Positions 8,549 to 14,993 of a stretch of DNA of 34,704 nt are shown here, piece by piece. The DNA lies in contig CAIQOK010000116.1 of assembly GCA_903873415.1 (NCBI GenBank), positions 1 to 34,704 on the forward strand. Direction: 5' to 3'. This DNA is from an uncultured Verrucomicrobiota bacterium. GTDB lineage: Bacteria; Verrucomicrobiota; Verrucomicrobiia; Limisphaerales; CAIQOK01. Each line of letters starts with the position of its first letter. The first letter of the stretch is position 1. The translations under genes and the position numbers were made by a program. The notes below the pieces were generated by a model. It was given only the letters and a program-made list of their open reading frames with translations, was not told where the DNA came from and made no database searches.

Positions 8549-9442
8549 TCAAAGCCGCTGAACCGACTTCCATCCAATGAGCACCCGGTTCAGAACTCCG
8601 CAGATTAGATAAACCGCGCCCAGCAGGACCACGTCGGTCGGTCCCACAGGCAGGTCGGCGCTGTAGGCCAGCCAGAAACCCAGAAAGGATGTCAGCCCGC
8701 CCAGCAGCGATGCGCCGATGACAAATTGCCGCATGGTCCGCGAGAACAAATGCGCCGTCAACGCCGGGATCAGTAGAAACCCAAACGCAATCAGCGGCCC
8801 CACGCTCAGCACCGCAATCGACACCGTCAGGCCGATCAGCAAATAGAGTGCGGCGTCCCAGAACACCACCTTTTTACCAAGCGTGGCCGCCATGGAACGA
8901 TCGAACGAAACGAACAAGATCTCCTTGTGAAACCAGCCCAGCACGCACAGCACCAGGGCCAGGGCAATCGCCGTCAGCTTGAGATCGAAATCGGAGATGG
9001 TGATGATCTCGCCCTTGAGCAGATCCAGCCAACCGGCCTCGGCAACCCGGTTCTTGGACAGGAGCAAAATGCTCGCGGCCGTGGCCACGACATAGACCGT
9101 GCCCAGGCGTCCCTCCGGCAGGCCGCGCCCCCGTCGTTCCATGAAGGCCAGGGACAGGATGGCCAGCAGAGTGAACAGCGTGGACCCGGCCAGGGCCAGC
9201 AAATGCCCGGTCTGTCCGTTGGAGCCGTGGGGCGCTGCGCCAAGGTGCAGCCACACGGGCAGGGACAAGGCCACGGCAACGCCGGTGGACGACACCTGAG
9301 GCAGCGCCACGCCCATGAATACAAGCCGGCGCAGGACGAGAAAGACCCCGACAAGCGGACAGGCAAATCCGACGAGCACACTGGTGTAAACCGAATTGCG
9401 CAGCAGAAAGTCGGGCGCTAAAATTTCCTTGAGTGTTTCCAT
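8549..9442 (-). CDS. Metal ABC transporter permease (ZnuB/MntB family)
   Basis: This 297-residue inner-membrane protein of the ABC-3 family has about eight hydrophobic segments spread over its length. It begins, like family members, with a hydrophobic segment followed by L-V-L-R-R and a G-x-A-L-P-Q-V-S-S-T-G-V-A segment (about 46-58), the family's coupling region. It carries zinc, manganese or iron into the cytoplasm together with the adjacent ATPase and binding protein. Its ATG overlaps the stop of the upstream ATPase gene by one base (TGATG), a sign of translational coupling. It is the last gene of the cluster. Confidence 0.9.
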   Translation of the reverse strand: METLKEILAPDFLLRNSVYTSVLVGFACPLVGVFLVLRRLVFMGVALPQVSSTGVAVALSLPVWLHLGAAPHGSNGQTGHLLALAGSTLFTLLAILSLAFMERRGRGLPEGRLGTVYVVATAASILLLSKNRVAEAGWLDLLKGEIITISDFDLKLTAIALALVLCVLGWFHKEILFVSFDRSMAATLGKKVVFWDAALYLLIGLTVSIAVLSVGPLIAFGFLLIPALTAHLFSRTMRQFVIGASLLGGLTSFLGFWLAYSADLPVGPTDVVLLGAVYLICGVLNRVLIGWKSVQRL

Positions 9443-10158
9443 CAGCCGGCCTCCACTTCGAATATTTCCGCCATGCGCTCCGGGGTGAAGAGTTCGGCGA
9501 CAGTCCCGTGCAATGCCCGGCCGTCATGGAGCCAAAGAATCCGTTGGGCGTGTTTGCGGACCAGCGGCAGATCGTGCGTGACCAGAAGCACAGTCAAGGA
9601 TCGTTCCTGATGAATTTGGGTGATGAACTCCAACAACACCCTCGTCGCCTTCACATCCACCCCGGCCGTCGGCTCATCCAGCACCAGGATGTCGGGGCGC
9701 GCGGCCAGAGCCCGCGCGATGAGCACCCGCTGCTTTTGCCCGCCGGAAAGCTGGCTGAATTTCCGGTCCGCAAACCCAGCCGCCCCGGTGGCCTGCAGGC
9801 AATCCCTCACAAAATCCCGCTCCCCGCGCCCGGGCCAGCGCCCCGGCCCGACCCGGCCATATGCGCCCATCAGGGCCACATCAAATCCGGTCAGCGGATA
9901 GAGCGGATCGAACTGAGTGGCCTGAGGCACATACCCGAAGATGAGTGCACGGCCCGGCGCAGCGTGAAGCTCGATCCGGCCCGCCACGGCAGGCTGCAGG
10001 CCGAGGATGGTTTTGAGCAAGGTGGATTTCCCCGTTCCATTGGCCCCCAGCAACGCCGTGAAACTGCCGCGGGAAATCACCAGGGAAATGCCCGACAAGA
10101 CCACGTGTCCGTCATAACCAATGGCCAGCTGGTCGAGGGTCAAAAGCGGCTCGGACAT
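9442..10158 (-). CDS. Metal ABC transporter ATP-binding protein (ZnuC family)
   Basis: The protein has 238 residues from the ATG at 10158. An open frame extends upstream to 10284, but only into the binding-protein gene. Motifs: Walker [10 protein letters not shown] (38-46), Q-loop near residue 79, signature LSGGQ (137-141), Walker B ILVLDEP (157-163) and the H-loop histidine in THDLP (about 195). It powers metal import at the cytoplasmic face. It starts 1 base after the stop of the binding-protein gene (TGATATG) and its stop overlaps the permease start, so all three are one coupled unit. Metal type is inferred from the neighbours. Confidence 0.92.
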
Positions 10159-10159
10159 A

Positions 10160-11068
10160 TCATTTGGCTGCGGCAGCGAACGTGTGGACGATGTAATCCA
10201 TCTCGGCAATGTAGGTGGTGGTATCCGGCACCCCACCGGGCATGATCGGCAGGGTGATGAGCTTGGCTCCAGTCTGCCGGGCAATCAGGGTGGGAACCTT
10301 CTCGGGAAACTGCGGCTCCCGCACCACGACCGGGACACGCTCGGATTTCATCGAGGCGATCAGTTGCTCGATATGACGGGGGGTGGGATCCACACCGGGC
10401 TTGAGCTCGATGGTGCCGAAGTATTGCAGGCCGAAACGGGCGGCGAAATAGGGCCAGTGCTCATGATAGGAGACAAATTTAACCCCCTTGCACGGGGCGA
10501 GTTCCTGCTCCCAACCAATTATTTTCGCATCGAGTTTCGCAAGGTAACCCTGGCGGTTCCGGACAAATTCGGCCGCATGTTCCGGGGCGGCGGCGATGAG
10601 GGCCCGGGCGATATTCCCCACGGCAGTCTTCGCCAGCAGAGGGTCGAGCATGTAATGCGGATTGCCATACGGATGGACATCCCCCTCGGAATGATCCGTG
10701 GATTTGGGGATATCAACGGGCGAAACCCCTTGCGAACAGTCCACATACCCCGATTTACCTGGCAAGATCCGCGGGTTTTTGCTCGCCTCCAGCAACGCCG
10801 GCAGAAACACATGCTCGCAATCAAACCCAATAAGAACGACCAGGTCCGCGCGGTTCAGCAATGTGACAAAGCTGGGTTTCATCGGCACCCCATGCGTGTC
10901 TTCCACACCGCTGGCCAGGCTGCGAACCTCCACAAATTCGCCGCCGAGATTGCGGGTGAAGTCGGCCAGATCGGTGAGCGTGGTGACGACGCGGAGTTTG
11001 GCCGCCCGAGCGGGAAACAGACCGAGCGCGGCAACGACAAATGGGATCAGGAGGAATTTGAATTTCAT
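10160..11068 (-). CDS. Zinc/manganese ABC transporter substrate-binding protein (ZnuA-like)
   Basis: This 302-residue protein has a signal peptide (cut near residue 22, after A-R-A). It is a cluster A-1 metal-binding protein. Candidate ligands by family position are H59 (D-T-H-G), H138 (G-N-P-H-Y), H202 (Y-H-E-H-W) and the acidic residue E251 (R-E-P-Q-F). The loop before H138 contains two extra histidines (D-H-S-E-G-D-V-H), shorter than the His-rich loop of classic ZnuA. Three histidines favour zinc, though manganese or iron is possible. It acts in the periplasm and hands metal to the adjacent permease. It lies 32 bp after the barrel protein gene. Confidence 0.9.
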   Translation of the reverse strand: MKFKFLLIPFVVAALGLFPARAAKLRVVTTLTDLADFTRNLGGEFVEVRSLASGVEDTHGVPMKPSFVTLLNRADLVVLIGFDCEHVFLPALLEASKNPRILPGKSGYVDCSQGVSPVDIPKSTDHSEGDVHPYGNPHYMLDPLLAKTAVGNIARALIAAAPEHAAEFVRNRQGYLAKLDAKIIGWEQELAPCKGVKFVSYHEHWPYFAARFGLQYFGTIELKPGVDPTPRHIEQLIASMKSERVPVVVREPQFPEKVPTLIARQTGAKLITLPIMPGGVPDTTTYIAEMDYIVHTFAAAAK

Positions 11069-11100
11069 AAGAATTTAGGGCTTTGGATCGTTTGCTGGGC

Positions 11101-12555
11101 TCAGCGCTGTGTCCAACCATGCGAATGGGCCCCGATGATCCAAGCCCATTGCAAATAGACCGCATCATCCGGTTTGAAGCCGGAAACGGCATTGTGATCG
11201 GTATGGGTATATTGCAGACGCAGCTGGTTCCAATGGCTAAAGGCAAAGGTGATGAAAGGCGAATAGGCGGAAGTCTGGTCACTGTGATTCCAGGCGGCCT
11301 GCACCCAGTCATAGAGGAACCCCGCGCTCCACTGGCGGCTCCACTTGTGGCTCACATACGAGTAGAAACCGAGAGATCCCACTCCATTGAGGTGTTCCCC
11401 ATCACCCGGCCCGGAAAATGGGTTGGCCGGATTCCAATTTCCGTTCGGATCGAATCGGTAGCGGTTGTCGCTGTAGAGCACTTCGGTGCCCCAGGTTGAG
11501 CTGGAAAACTGATTGTCCCGCAGCGGCACGTAGCTGAGCTTGAAATCCAATCCCGCCAGACGGCGCTCGCGCTCGGTAAGCGTGCCGCCATCCGCCTGAA
11601 CACTCACGCCACCCCGGTCCTGGGTGGCCGGATTCCACAACCCGGAAGTGCCCGCCTCCAATTGCCAGCTCGGGGCCAGATCGAAATAAGTAGAAAGGCG
11701 TCCCCAGCCATTGAGTTTCGGGGCGCTCCGGAAAGTCCCGGGATTGTTCGGATTGGGACTGTCGCCACCAAACTGGTCGCCCGCTCCCAGGGTGAGACTG
11801 ACATAATGTTCGGTGGGCAGGAGCCAGTTGACCTGCGCGCCATCGGTGCGCGTCTCTCCGCCGATATATCGGTCGAGCACCTGAGGGCGGTTCACAAAGG
11901 GCAGTTCATGATCATGGATGCAGCCCAAGCGCCCGAACTCGCCGAAGAACCGGCCGGCCGTGAGCGTCAGGTTGCCGGGAAGTGATGTGGTCTGGAGGGC
12001 AGCCTCCTCAACACCAAGGGCCGCCTCACCGGTCAGAGGATCCGCCGAAGAATTGGCCACGATCCACGCTTTGGCAAACGGATCCACCGAGGCCATCGCA
12101 TTCAACTCCACCGATCGCTGAAAGATGTCAAAACCCCCGGGCCGCGCACTCCCGGTCTGATCCGACCCTTTGCTGCGATAGCCGAAAATGGTCTCCCCCA
12201 CCAGACCAATGGCAGGGTTGAATTCCCCGGGCAAGCTCTTCTTCTGGGCCTCGACAACCTGATCAACCCGCTCGTCGAGCCTCTTGAGGCGGTCCGGCGC
12301 CGCCGTTTCCACGGGTGTTTTTCCGGCGGCCAGCGGACTGAAATTAGTGGATGCCGGCAGGGCCCCCTGCGCGGACACCACCTCCATTTTTTGGATCAAC
12401 TGATTGATCAAGGCGCGGTCTTCGGCATGCACTTTATCAAAATACTCCCGCATCTGCTGCAACTGGAACCTCAATTCCTGGACTTCATTGGTTTCCCTGG
12501 CGCCCGCCAAGGGCATGACAAGCCCCAGGCAAAGCGCGGTGGCGATTTTTTTCAT
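11101..12555 (-). CDS. Predicted outer-membrane beta-barrel protein of the metal-uptake cluster
   Basis: This 484-residue protein has a signal peptide (residues 1-20) and then a helical, probably coiled-coil stretch (about 22-65; L-R-F-Q-L-Q-Q-M-R-E). After a linker comes a long region (about 115-484) of alternating polar and aromatic residues typical of porin-like barrels. The coiled coil followed by a barrel resembles porins that anchor to the cell wall. The C-terminal part is rich in His and Trp (for example H-S-H-G-W near the end), and it does not end in the usual aromatic residue. The gene lies directly upstream of the metal-binding protein gene on the same strand, so I infer it passes metal across the outer membrane. 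No TonB box or plug domain is visible. Confidence 0.7.
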   Translation of the reverse strand: MKKIATALCLGLVMPLAGARETNEVQELRFQLQQMREYFDKVHAEDRALINQLIQKMEVVSAQGALPASTNFSPLAAGKTPVETAAPDRLKRLDERVDQVVEAQKKSLPGEFNPAIGLVGETIFGYRSKGSDQTGSARPGGFDIFQRSVELNAMASVDPFAKAWIVANSSADPLTGEAALGVEEAALQTTSLPGNLTLTAGRFFGEFGRLGCIHDHELPFVNRPQVLDRYIGGETRTDGAQVNWLLPTEHYVSLTLGAGDQFGGDSPNPNNPGTFRSAPKLNGWGRLSTYFDLAPSWQLEAGTSGLWNPATQDRGGVSVQADGGTLTERERRLAGLDFKLSYVPLRDNQFSSSTWGTEVLYSDNRYRFDPNGNWNPANPFSGPGDGEHLNGVGSLGFYSYVSHKWSRQWSAGFLYDWVQAAWNHSDQTSAYSPFITFAFSHWNQLRLQYTHTDHNAVSGFKPDDAVYLQWAWIIGAHSHGWTQR

Positions 12556-12660
12556 GATTGCTCCAACAATGGTTTTTCAAGTGTTTCTAAGGGATTGGTT
12601 TGACGCCAAAAGCGCAAACGAATCATTTCGGGCACGGACAGAACGGGAGAACGGCAAAGG

Positions 12661-12987
12661 TTAGAAACAGGGGGGAGCGCGGCCCGGATCAAGCCGGAGA
12701 TCGGAGAAGCTGAGAACAACGTAAAAAATCCGGGGCATGACCATGCTCAAGGCCGGGATAAATCCGGCCACCAGCGCCAAAAGAGACGGGGAGTGAAGCT
12801 GACCGTGGGTCAAAAGTGTGACAGGACAGTGATGCCCGGAGTGATGGGCATCGGGGTGAATGGATTGGTGGAGGTCGGCGGAAGCGGCGAACAACTCAAG
12901 CGCAAAGAACAAGACCAGACACAAGAGCCCTGCCCACCGGAACCGACTCCGGGAATGGACAGCAAGCTCTGTGGGTGACGGATGCAT
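12661..12987 (-). CDS. Small His-rich exported or membrane protein
   Basis: This 108-residue protein starts at the ATG at 12987, before a Leu/Phe-rich signal or membrane segment (about 18-36). Next is a dense His segment (about 38-62, with D-L-H-Q-S-I-H-P and H-H-S-G-H-H-C), then a second hydrophobic stretch (about 67-92). The first hydrophobic segment followed by a His cluster with C-P-V-T-L-L resembles small DUF2946-like proteins found next to metal transport genes. It lies 105 bp upstream of the barrel gene on the same strand, so a role in metal binding or buffering in the periplasm is plausible. It overlaps nothing; the longer frame extending into the kinase gene is spurious. Confidence 0.65.
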   Translation of the reverse strand: MHPSPTELAVHSRSRFRWAGLLCLVLFFALELFAASADLHQSIHPDAHHSGHHCPVTLLTHGQLHSPSLLALVAGFIPALSMVMPRIFYVVLSFSDLRLDPGRAPPCF

Positions 12988-13060: not shown

Positions 13061-14233
13061 TCAATCGGCCCCGGGGAGGGTGAAGAAAAAAGACGAACCC
13101 TTGCCCGGCTCGCTTTTCGCCCAGACCCGGCCGCCATGGTTCTGGACGATGTGTTTGACGATGGAAAGCCCAAGGCCAGTGCCTCCCTGCTCCCGGGACC
13201 GGGCCTTATCCACCCGGTAAAACCGCTCGAACACCCGTTCCAGCGACTCTGGCGCGATGCCCGGCCCGTCATCCTGCACACAGACCTCAATCAAGCCGAG
13301 AGCAGCCGGCGCGGCGGAGAGAGTGACATGCCCGTCATTCCGGCCGTATTTGATGGCATTGCCCACGAGGTTGCCCAGCACCTGATGCAACCGGTTCGCA
13401 TCGGCCCGGACCACCCCTTGGGCCACCGCATTGGTGAGAGTGACGTTTTTCGACCGGGCCTGGTTTTTGAAATCCTCCAGCACGCGATCCACCAAGGGAA
13501 CCAAGGGGAGTTCCTCCACGTTCAGGGTGACCCGGCCCGATTCCAGTTCGGAGATGATCAGCAGATCTTCAATTAGGAAATGCAAGCGCTCGGCATTGCG
13601 GTGGATTGTCTGAAGAAATCTCAAGCACACCTCGGGATTGTCCCGGGCCCCGTCAATGAGCGTCTCGACATACCCTTTGATCAGCGAGAGGGGGGTGCGC
13701 AACTCGTGGCTGACATTGGCAACGAATTCCTCCCGCGTCCGTTCCAAAAGCTTAAGCCGGGTCAAATCATGAAACACCAGCACCGTCCCCTGTCCCTCCC
13801 CGTCCTGGCCCAGAATCCCTGCGGCATTTATCTCCACGGAGCGGTCGGCAAAACCACCCAGCTTCAATTGATATCCCAGAACCTGTCTCTCGGCCTCAAC
13901 CCGGGCCAGCAACCCGGTGAGTTCATGCTGCCGCAACACCTCCAGCACCGTCATCCCCCGCACATCCGTGGCCACCTCAAACAGCTCGCCAAAGGCCCGG
14001 TTGGCCAGCTGGATGCGGCCCTGCGGATCCAGTAGCAACAGGCCCTCGACCATGCTGTTGAAAAGCGTTTCCTGCCGGGTCTGGATTTGCGCGGCCTGCT
14101 GGCGCTGCTGTTCCCGCAGCCGGTCCAGTGCAGCGGACCCTTGGGCTTGAATTCGGAGACAGTTTTGGCGCCACCGCAGATGAAGAACCAGAAGGGCTGC
14201 CGCGAGGAGGATACTGAGGATTTGCCAAAACAT
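13061..14233 (-). CDS. phoR: PhoR-like sensor histidine kinase
   Basis: This 390-residue kinase has one N-terminal membrane segment (about 3-20), a short coiled stretch, a PAS domain (about 52-160), and a HisKA dimerisation domain with phosphoacceptor H176 in V-S-H-E-L-R-T-P. The ATPase domain shows the N box (N-L-V-G-N-A-I-K-Y-G), G1 (D-D-G-P-G-I-A) and G2 (G-G-T-G-L-G-L). The lack of a periplasmic loop between two membrane helices matches PhoR-type kinases that sense through the transporter/PhoU complex. It follows the regulator gene after 9 bp, in regulator-kinase order. The Pho box upstream of the pair supports a phosphate role; no pst or phoU genes are in the window. Confidence 0.85.
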   Translation of the reverse strand: MFWQILSILLAAALLVLHLRWRQNCLRIQAQGSAALDRLREQQRQQAAQIQTRQETLFNSMVEGLLLLDPQGRIQLANRAFGELFEVATDVRGMTVLEVLRQHELTGLLARVEAERQVLGYQLKLGGFADRSVEINAAGILGQDGEGQGTVLVFHDLTRLKLLERTREEFVANVSHELRTPLSLIKGYVETLIDGARDNPEVCLRFLQTIHRNAERLHFLIEDLLIISELESGRVTLNVEELPLVPLVDRVLEDFKNQARSKNVTLTNAVAQGVVRADANRLHQVLGNLVGNAIKYGRNDGHVTLSAAPAALGLIEVCVQDDGPGIAPESLERVFERFYRVDKARSREQGGTGLGLSIVKHIVQNHGGRVWAKSEPGKGSSFFFTLPGAD

Positions 14234-14242
14234 GGGCCAAGG

Positions 14243-14947
14243 CTAGGCTTCAACAAAACGGTAACCCACACCCCGGACGGTATCGAGAAACTTTGCCGCC
14301 CCGCCGAGTTTTTCCCTCAGCCGGCGCATATGGGTATCCACCGTGCGGGTGTCCACCAGACTGTTGTATTCCCATACATCCCGCAACAGTTGGTCCCGGG
14401 ACTGAACGCGACCGCGGCGCTGGGCCAAAACCGAGAGCAGCTTGAATTCAGTGGCCGTCAGTTCGATGGCGCTGCCCTTGTAAGTCACCATGTGCCGGGG
14501 ATTATCAATCACCAGATCCCCGAAACGCAGCACCTGAGATTCCTCCTTGGGTTGGACCTGACCGCGCTGCAAAAGCTTCTTAACCCTCAACACGAGTTCC
14601 CGCGGGCTGAACGGCTTGGTGATATAATCATCGGCCCCCAACTCCAGCCCCAGCACCCGGTCGATTTCAGCCGCCTTGGCTGTCAGCATGATGATTGGAA
14701 TCCCCGCCGTGGCGGGATCGCGTCGGAGCATCTTGCAAATTTCGAGTCCTCCGATTTCCGGCAGCATCAGATCAAGGACGATCAATCGGGGCGAGGCGGA
14801 CCGGGCTTTAGTGAGCGCCTCGGCGCCATCGGAGGCCGTCACCACGGAAAAACCGGCCTGCTCCAAATTGAACTCCACCAGCTCCACCGCCTCCGGCTCA
14901 TCATCCACCACGAGAATTTTAGGTTTCAACGGGGCTTTGATTAGCAT
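14243..14947 (-). CDS. phoB: PhoB-like response regulator (OmpR family)
   Basis: The protein has 234 residues from the ATG at 14947. A TTG 36 bp upstream in the same frame is rejected because it lies inside the Pho box. The receiver domain shows D15/D16, phosphoacceptor D59, T89 and K111. The C-terminal winged helix spans about 138-234, with the OmpR-type T-x-x-E-F-K-L-L and D-T-H-M-R-R-L-R-x-K segments and a G-V-G-Y-R-F ending. When phosphorylated by the adjacent kinase it should bind direct-repeat sites such as those at 14976-14993, 15438-15455 and 28604-28621. The first of these sits in front of its own gene and suggests autoregulation. The PhoB name is supported by family and context rather than by a test. 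Confidence 0.87.
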   Translation of the reverse strand: MLIKAPLKPKILVVDDEPEAVELVEFNLEQAGFSVVTASDGAEALTKARSASPRLIVLDLMLPEIGGLEICKMLRRDPATAGIPIIMLTAKAAEIDRVLGLELGADDYITKPFSPRELVLRVKKLLQRGQVQPKEESQVLRFGDLVIDNPRHMVTYKGSAIELTATEFKLLSVLAQRRGRVQSRDQLLRDVWEYNSLVDTRTVDTHMRRLREKLGGAAKFLDTVRGVGYRFVEA

Positions 14948-14975
14948 GCGCAGAGCATGGCCACAACCACGGGAC

Positions 14976-14993
14976 TGTGACAAGAAGGTTACA
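14976..14993 (-). promoter_or_regulatory. Pho-box-like direct repeat upstream of phoB-like gene
   Basis: On the minus strand this reads TGTAACC-TTCT-TGTCACA, two 7-bp half-sites 11 bp apart in the same orientation. That is the geometry of a PhoB binding site. It ends 28 bp before the ATG at 14947 and covers the alternative TTG at 14983, which fixes the choice of start. The half-sites match those at 15438-15455 and 28604-28621. Confidence 0.7.

Follow-up and report, generated by a model that had tools for sequence, protein, structure and literature searches.

A Conserved, Probable Porin–ABC Metal-Uptake Cluster in Verrucomicrobiota and Its Putative Metal-Sensing Arrest Leader

A Five-Gene Cluster and Its Conservation

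The window analyzed here is a stretch of 34,704 nucleotides (nt), contig CAIQOK010000116.1, from an uncultured Verrucomicrobiota bacterium whose genome assembly comprises 189 contigs and 3.8 Mb, and our subject is a cluster of five genes at 8549–12987, all on the minus strand, that probably encodes a regulated metal-uptake system. The cluster is headed by a gene for a small His-rich protein of 108 amino acids (aa) at 12661–12987, which we interpret as a putative metal-sensing translation-arrest peptide and refer to as the leader. It is followed by a gene (11101–12555) for a 484-aa protein with an N-terminal coiled coil and a predicted 16-stranded β-barrel that belongs to no curated family, hereafter the barrel protein, and by genes encoding a ZnuA-type periplasmic metal-binding protein (10160–11068; PF01297, e value 9e-52), an ATP-binding cassette (ABC) ATPase of the ZnuC/AztA/MntA type (9442–10158; PF00005), and an ABC-3 family permease of the ZnuB/AztB type (8549–9442; PF00950, e value 1e-40). 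Because the ZnuA-type and ATPase genes, and likewise the ATPase and permease genes, overlap by a few bases, we regard these three genes as coupled. An initial annotation of this DNA had described five same-strand genes in the interval, the last three as a coupled binding protein, ATPase, and permease; all five are present on the minus strand, and the Pfam matches together with the overlaps confirm the coupled set.

The order of the genes is conserved far beyond chance. Among 97 testable loci, which come from Verrucomicrobiota, Desulfobacterota-type genomes, and Vibrio, 84 have a ZnuA-type gene directly after the barrel gene (37/37, 31/40, and 16/20 in the separate genome sets), so that homologs of the barrel gene are not found mostly beside unrelated genes, and the view of the initial annotation that this is a self-contained metal-uptake cluster holds up. 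Homologs of the barrel protein were identified in 35 of the 58 genomes searched, most of which belong to the same order, and a profile detected them in 62 of 288 genomes from the phylum and in 25 of 198 from the phylum to which a Syntrophobacterales metagenome-assembled genome (MAG) belongs; Vibrio campbellii and Sulfurovum replicons carry them as well. The closest named relatives are encoded in Verrucomicrobia MAGs and on one contig of the Syntrophobacterales MAG. The viral collection contains no relative.

Several of these loci deserve separate mention. At the Syntrophobacterales locus (L028, JADGQN010000288.1) the barrel and ZnuA-type proteins are 55% and 66% identical to those of the window and are of the window's own subtype, which may reflect either transfer or misbinning. 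A plasmid of Sulfurovum mangrovi (Campylobacterota; L181, 3806–5490) carries a CxxC-containing leader that ends in HAPP, a barrel gene annotated as a hypothetical protein, and zinc ABC genes; the distance from Cys to the C-terminal motif is longer than usual in this leader. No ATPase gene adjoins the leader, barrel, binding protein, and permease genes in L031, L036, L045, L181, and others, and in L177 the barrel, binding protein, and permease genes also lack an adjoining ATPase gene.

The Barrel Protein and the Cargo Metal

The barrel protein matches no family in Pfam or NCBIfam, nor does it match the TonB plug (PF07715) or the TonB-receptor barrel (PF00593) at an e value of 1 or less, in agreement with the initial annotation, which had seen no plug in it either. 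A TonB-dependent receptor was rejected on these grounds and because the predicted number of strands is about 16 rather than 22. Although the protein resembles ZnuD-type zinc TonB-dependent receptors in being the outer-membrane partner of a Znu system, it differs from them in lacking a plug and a match to the receptor barrel and in its smaller predicted strand number.

An AlphaFold2 model built from four sequences, the window protein and three relatives, consists of an N-terminal helix at residues 23–63, the coiled-coil segment (12367–12489, minus strand), and 16 strands, and a trimmed prediction run gave the same picture. The mean predicted local distance difference test (pLDDT) score is 45, a weakness that we attribute to the input of only four sequences. 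When this low-confidence model was compared with known structures by Foldseek/VIA-align, it matched the porins VhChiP (Z 20.4), OprP (19.8), OprB (19.7), and OprO (19.4). The structure prediction that had been proposed with the initial annotation therefore returns a 16-stranded barrel at low pLDDT, and because the model is weak we consider the fold class, a 16-stranded porin, likely and its details unproven; the coiled coil and the His- and Trp-containing C-terminus described there are both present, the coiled coil being N-terminal. Despite the predicted resemblance in fold, the window protein has no significant sequence match to OprP/OprO, VhChiP, OprB, or LbtU. A sequence search of the PDB with the barrel alone found nothing, and with profiles it found only coiled-coil or marginal matches.

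Across 43 diverse members (alignment A3), E183, G201, H214, H216, R446, and G475 are invariant. The two histidines form the motif H214-D-H216 (11908–11916, minus strand) in the long loop that joins predicted strands 5 and 6, and H214-x-H216 is invariant in all 31 homologs of the order-level alignment A1 as well as in the 43 of A3. This loop has the position that the constriction loop L3 takes in classical porins. Judging from the model, we infer that H214-x-H216 sits within the pore, and this invariant motif is a property of the family that sets it apart from known 16-stranded porins. A second pair, H477 and H479 (11119–11127, minus strand), follows the last predicted strand and is invariant in A1 and mostly retained in A3. 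The initial annotation had described the end of the protein as rich in His and Trp; these residues are present, but the loop motif is the more informative feature.

These histidines also bear on the possibility that the barrel acts as a general porin, or as a TonB-independent receptor for metallophore complexes similar to LbtU, rather than a path for the free ion. A predicted 16-strand fold with a coiled coil would suit such a protein, and some homologs weakly match the siderophore porin LbtU (NF033652; 3 of 43, best e value 0.0076), Porin_O_P (3 of 43, best e value 8e-5), or BBP2. However, the window protein itself matches neither NF033652, nor Porin_O_P (PF07396), nor BBP2, metallophore synthesis genes were not seen in the cluster, and the invariant His-x-His together with the near-invariant C-terminal pair suggests contacts with bare metal. 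We consider this alternative unlikely, yet far from negligible.

With respect to the cargo, the ABC genes resemble ZnuABC and AztABC in combining a PF01297 binding protein with His ligands, an ATPase, and an ABC-3 permease in one operon, but they differ from both in that none reaches the NCBIfam equivalog cut-offs set for AztA/B/C or ZnuA/B/C and in that the operon has its own non-TonB porin and a leader. The binding protein scores 176.5 bits against PF01297 (cut-off 29), and its best NCBIfam match is AztC (98.8, cut-off 350), followed by a score of 78.9 against ZnuA (cut-off 268). The permease has an AztB-type match, also below the equivalog cut-off, and the best models for the ATPase are MntA and AztA, both below cut-off. 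Four histidines of the binding protein (H59, H132, H138, and H202) are shared by all 81 of 81 cluster homologs, and the likely ligand set, as judged from the alignment, is H59, H138, and H202, which is of the three-His zinc type. H202 aligns with a His of the solved zinc ZnuA structures 2ov1/1pq4. Manganese members of this family carry Glu at the same position. Because the window protein follows the zinc pattern there, we take zinc to be the most likely cargo. Manganese, iron, or another divalent metal, under otherwise identical regulation, would be in keeping with the best NCBIfam score of the ATPase being MntA, with the manganese and iron members of the binding-protein superfamily, and with the TonB receptor and efflux genes that follow relatives of the leader (see below); but H202 in 81 of 81 homologs, together with the zinc protein AztC as the best, though below cut-off, match of the binding protein, makes another metal rather unlikely.

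The Leader and Its Relatives

The leader has a hydrophobic stretch at residues 18–35 (12883–12936, minus strand) that could serve as a signal peptide or membrane anchor, a putative metal motif defined by conserved columns, H40xxxH44xD46xxxxxH52H53C54 (12826–12870, minus strand), and the sequence RAPP at residues 103–106 (codons CGC GCT CCC CCC; 12670–12681, minus strand), two residues before the stop codon, so that its C-terminus reads RAPPCF-stop. Since related open reading frames head the cluster in most relatives, we regard this small reading frame as a real gene. In alignment A4, which includes 24 relatives, C54, R103, P105, and P106 are invariant, and H40 and H44 are conserved in more than 90% of sequences. 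Nearly all relatives end in R-A/G-P-P, or in a few cases H-A/G-P-P, near the C-terminus, and the Cys is preceded by His residues. The gap between Cys and Arg is 48 residues in the window leader, and among 72 candidate leaders at barrel loci it is 47 in 25, 48 in 25, and 49 in 6 (56/72). Under a strict criterion that requires [RH][AG]PP within the last 32 residues and a Cys at a gap of 46–49, leaders were found at 62 of 99 barrel loci, against 2 among the 413 other genes at these loci. Every synonymous codon for Ala and for Pro occurs at the respective positions, and Arg is encoded by each of its six codons, which indicates that the R-A-P-P peptide itself is under selection. CxxC occurs in 38 of 62 leader relatives and CxxT in 19, the window copy among them. 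CxxC-bearing relatives match DUF2946 (PF11162) with scores of 24.0, 23.3, and 23.1 against a cut-off of 23.7 (best e value 7e-5). Because the window copy with its CPVT is unmatched, we do not class it as a DUF2946 member but only as CruR-like in working.

Leaders are not confined to barrel loci. Of the 58 order-level genomes, 47 contain a match to the leader profile; the window's own genome contains one leader match and one gene of the FUR family. Copies away from barrels precede genes for TonB receptors, CusB/HlyD and OEP efflux proteins, and FUR-family regulators, and others precede surface-protein operons of the choice-of-anchor M/TIGR03773 type, one of them with a ZnuA-type gene. As far as such neighborhoods can tell, this distribution agrees with a broad family of metal-responsive leaders, one large branch of which serves the porin–Znu cluster. 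At two loci (L207 and L209) the leader lies directly before the gene for a FUR-family regulator, so arrest peptides may also control a metal regulator. Leaders also head operons with a prepilin-like protein (L196, L197, L201, L204, L206, L207, L208, and L210); several of these contain the choice-of-anchor M/TIGR03773 proteins, L197 is the one with the ZnuA-type gene, and as a group they resemble actinobacterial anchored-repeat transporter loci. Upstream open reading frames (uORFs) that end in RAPP but lack a CxxC at the expected spacing were seen in L173, L174, and L176; they are possibly leaders with a different ligand or signal.

The window leader shares several features with CruR, the leader of the bfrG copper-uptake operon of Bordetella pertussis, whose CXXC (residues 90–93) and RAPP (139–142) are separated by the same C90-to-R139 gap of 48 (PMC9426467): both are small exported-type leaders with RAPP near the C-terminus, and both come first in a metal-uptake operon with an outer-membrane barrel next. 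In vitro work has shown that translation of CruR arrests at RAPP while its two Pro codons occupy the P and A sites, and RAPP and RGPP support arrest in several contexts (PMC12992588). By analogy, ribosomes translating the window leader may arrest at the same motif. Unlike CruR, which has CxxC for copper and acts by Rho termination before a TonB receptor, the window leader reads HxxxHxD...HHCPVT and is followed by a TonB-free porin and ZnuACB. CutF, the cutO leader of Rhodobacter capsulatus, is similar in being an exported nascent metal sensor with a proline-rich C-terminus and a structure that masks a ribosome-binding site, but it serves copper detoxification, metal promotes expression, and its motif is CxxxC (PMC9973294). 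SecM, ApdA, and ApdP likewise arrest at a C-terminal RAGP/RAPP, and the ribosome stalled on SecM exposes a masked downstream ribosome-binding site; in contrast to the window leader, they monitor protein export, control sec/yidC genes, and have no metal motif.

Complementarity to the Barrel-Gene Ribosome-Binding Site and Proposed Control

A further difference from CruR is that, at the level of the family, the RAPP codons match the ribosome-binding site of the downstream gene. We computed how the 36 nt that begin with the RAPP codons pair with the 20 nt that precede the barrel start codon and found a mean of −13.55 kcal/mol between each RAPP segment and its own ribosome-binding site, compared with about −10 for other leader segments. 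The peak is sharp at offset zero, that is, at the RAPP codons, which on average pair best of all leader segments. An explanation by the C-rich Pro codons or by genome GC content alone was rejected: swapping the ribosome-binding sites between loci gave −10.96 ± 0.32 kcal/mol (permutation p = 0.0002), dinucleotide-shuffled controls gave −10.84, and a GC-matched swap left a difference of −2.44 at offset 0 (p = 1.7e-5), whereas at offsets −120, −84, −60, −36, +24, and +36 it left none. In the window, the elements in question are GCUCC within the RAPP codons (12674–12678, minus strand), where the complementarity of the family peaks and which is a possible anti-Shine–Dalgarno sequence, and GGAGC (12560–12564, minus strand) upstream of the ATG at 12555, the likely Shine–Dalgarno sequence of the barrel gene.

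Taken together, these observations lead us to favor a reading in which the first gene controls the operon post-transcriptionally through a short exported leader that combines a His/Cys metal motif with a C-terminal RAPP arrest motif. Pairing with the ribosome-binding site of the porin gene would involve the RAPP codons and the bases that directly follow. When metal is scarce, the ribosome would stall at RAPP, its P and A sites occupied by Pro codons, and would cover much of the pairing strand, which would leave the ribosome-binding site free for translation of the porin and the coupled ABC genes. When metal is plentiful, the nascent leader, most likely with zinc as its ligand, would bind it 48 residues upstream, the stall would be relieved, and completion of the leader would mask the site and switch the operon off. 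A motif 48 residues from the peptidyl-transferase centre lies near or just outside the ribosome exit; hence sensing is probably co-translational and precedes full export. The porin would then pass metal passively, probably aided by the invariant His-x-His in the constriction loop, and the His-liganded binding protein, ATPase, and permease would move it into the cytoplasm. This polarity, stalling at low metal and relief by metal, is chosen because, given masking, uptake genes are expected to be switched on under metal scarcity, and it is derived from the cargo since CutF has the opposite polarity. We hold it probable, with considerable room for doubt, that the cluster is a porin–ABC metal-uptake operon, most likely for zinc, under a RAPP-stalling, metal-sensing leader that acts by masking the ribosome-binding site.

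A number of observations weigh against this reading. The window leader reads CPVT instead of CxxC and matches no Pfam family, PF11162 included, and no NCBIfam family, and 27 of the 99 barrel loci are without a detectable leader. The metal need not be zinc in every leader, since relatives precede TonB receptor, efflux, and FUR-family genes, and with CruR using Rho termination and CutF having the opposite polarity, polarity is unreadable from the leader family. The pairing in the window is limited to five bases, GCUCC:GGAGC, and ranks at 0.60 among other segments, while the local fold is no stronger than that of shuffled sequences (z −0.8); because this pairing is not exceptional, the masking device is carried over to the window copy from the family. 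Among the relatives, L028 and L170 have strong pairing. Finally, the barrel model with its pLDDT of 45 is weak.

The weak pairing in the window also favors a leader closer to CruR, in which arrest at RAPP would block Rho-dependent termination between the leader and barrel genes, metal would relieve the arrest, and masking would not be the main device. The motif, its spacing, and the uptake-type cargo are as in CruR, and leader–barrel intergenic gaps of 58–285 nt across loci give room for a Rho site; yet the family-wide, locus-specific complementarity of the RAPP codons to the ribosome-binding site is unexpected under a pure Rho mechanism. We regard termination control as the less probable device, but as one to be taken seriously. 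The initial annotation had described the small protein as exported and, by implication, as a periplasmic component of the system. The gene is real, but this role is most likely wrong, and an arrest leader is favored. A membrane or periplasmic chaperone that takes up metal at the porin and delivers it to the ZnuA-type protein would agree with the hydrophobic N-terminus, the His/Cys cluster, and the conserved position beside the porin and binding protein genes. Such a chaperone is nevertheless very improbable given that the sole other invariant feature is a C-terminal RAPP at a fixed distance from Cys in the first gene of the operon, that the RAPP codons are matched to the ribosome-binding site of the next gene, and that relatives precede efflux and FUR-family genes, a setting that hardly suits a shared import chaperone.

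A Zur-type site, the search for which had been suggested in the initial annotation, did not turn up, as no palindrome like GTTATAATATAAC occurs in the whole window with up to three mismatches allowed. Scans for promoters and terminators gave results at chance level. Directly upstream of the leader, after a gap of 74 bp, lie phoR- and phoB-like genes (13061–14983). A phosphate porin linked to these genes was considered and rejected, as the barrel genes elsewhere neighbor zinc-type ABC genes.

Regulation of this kind is already known from CruR/CutF and SecM, and the zinc-uptake setting and the unannotated porin family appear to be the new parts. The word zinc is absent from the main texts on CruR, CutF, and two RAPP surveys, although supplement entries could differ; the main text on CutF contains none of zinc, porin, ABC transporter, or Verrucomicro- (PMC9973294), and the zinc-uptake setting of a leader with an unnamed porin was not found in open-access texts. 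CutF-like leaders are tied to copper, and CutF groups with only His adjoin nickel/cobalt HupE/UreJ genes (PMC9973294). For Caulobacter, a published table places a DUF2946 gene at the head of the czr/zntA zinc-efflux operon but gives it no leader role (PMC4176598). The genome-wide RAPP survey of 2025 excluded uORFs whose downstream gene was annotated as unknown, a filter that would hide porin–Znu leaders because the barrel has no family.

Metal-responsive arrest peptides have so far concerned copper, with hints for nickel and cobalt, and the known specific outer-membrane routes for metals are mostly TonB receptors. More broadly, it is conceivable, at somewhat less than even chance, that a zinc-sensing arrest peptide unmasks the ribosome-binding site of new TonB-independent, His-lined zinc porins, in a system that spans at least three phyla and operates alongside Zur or in its place. 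If true, a nascent chain that senses metal while on the ribosome would control zinc uptake as well, in phyla whose zinc regulation is poorly known, and the widespread, unannotated porin family, which deserves a name, would provide a TonB-free outer-membrane route for a scarce metal.

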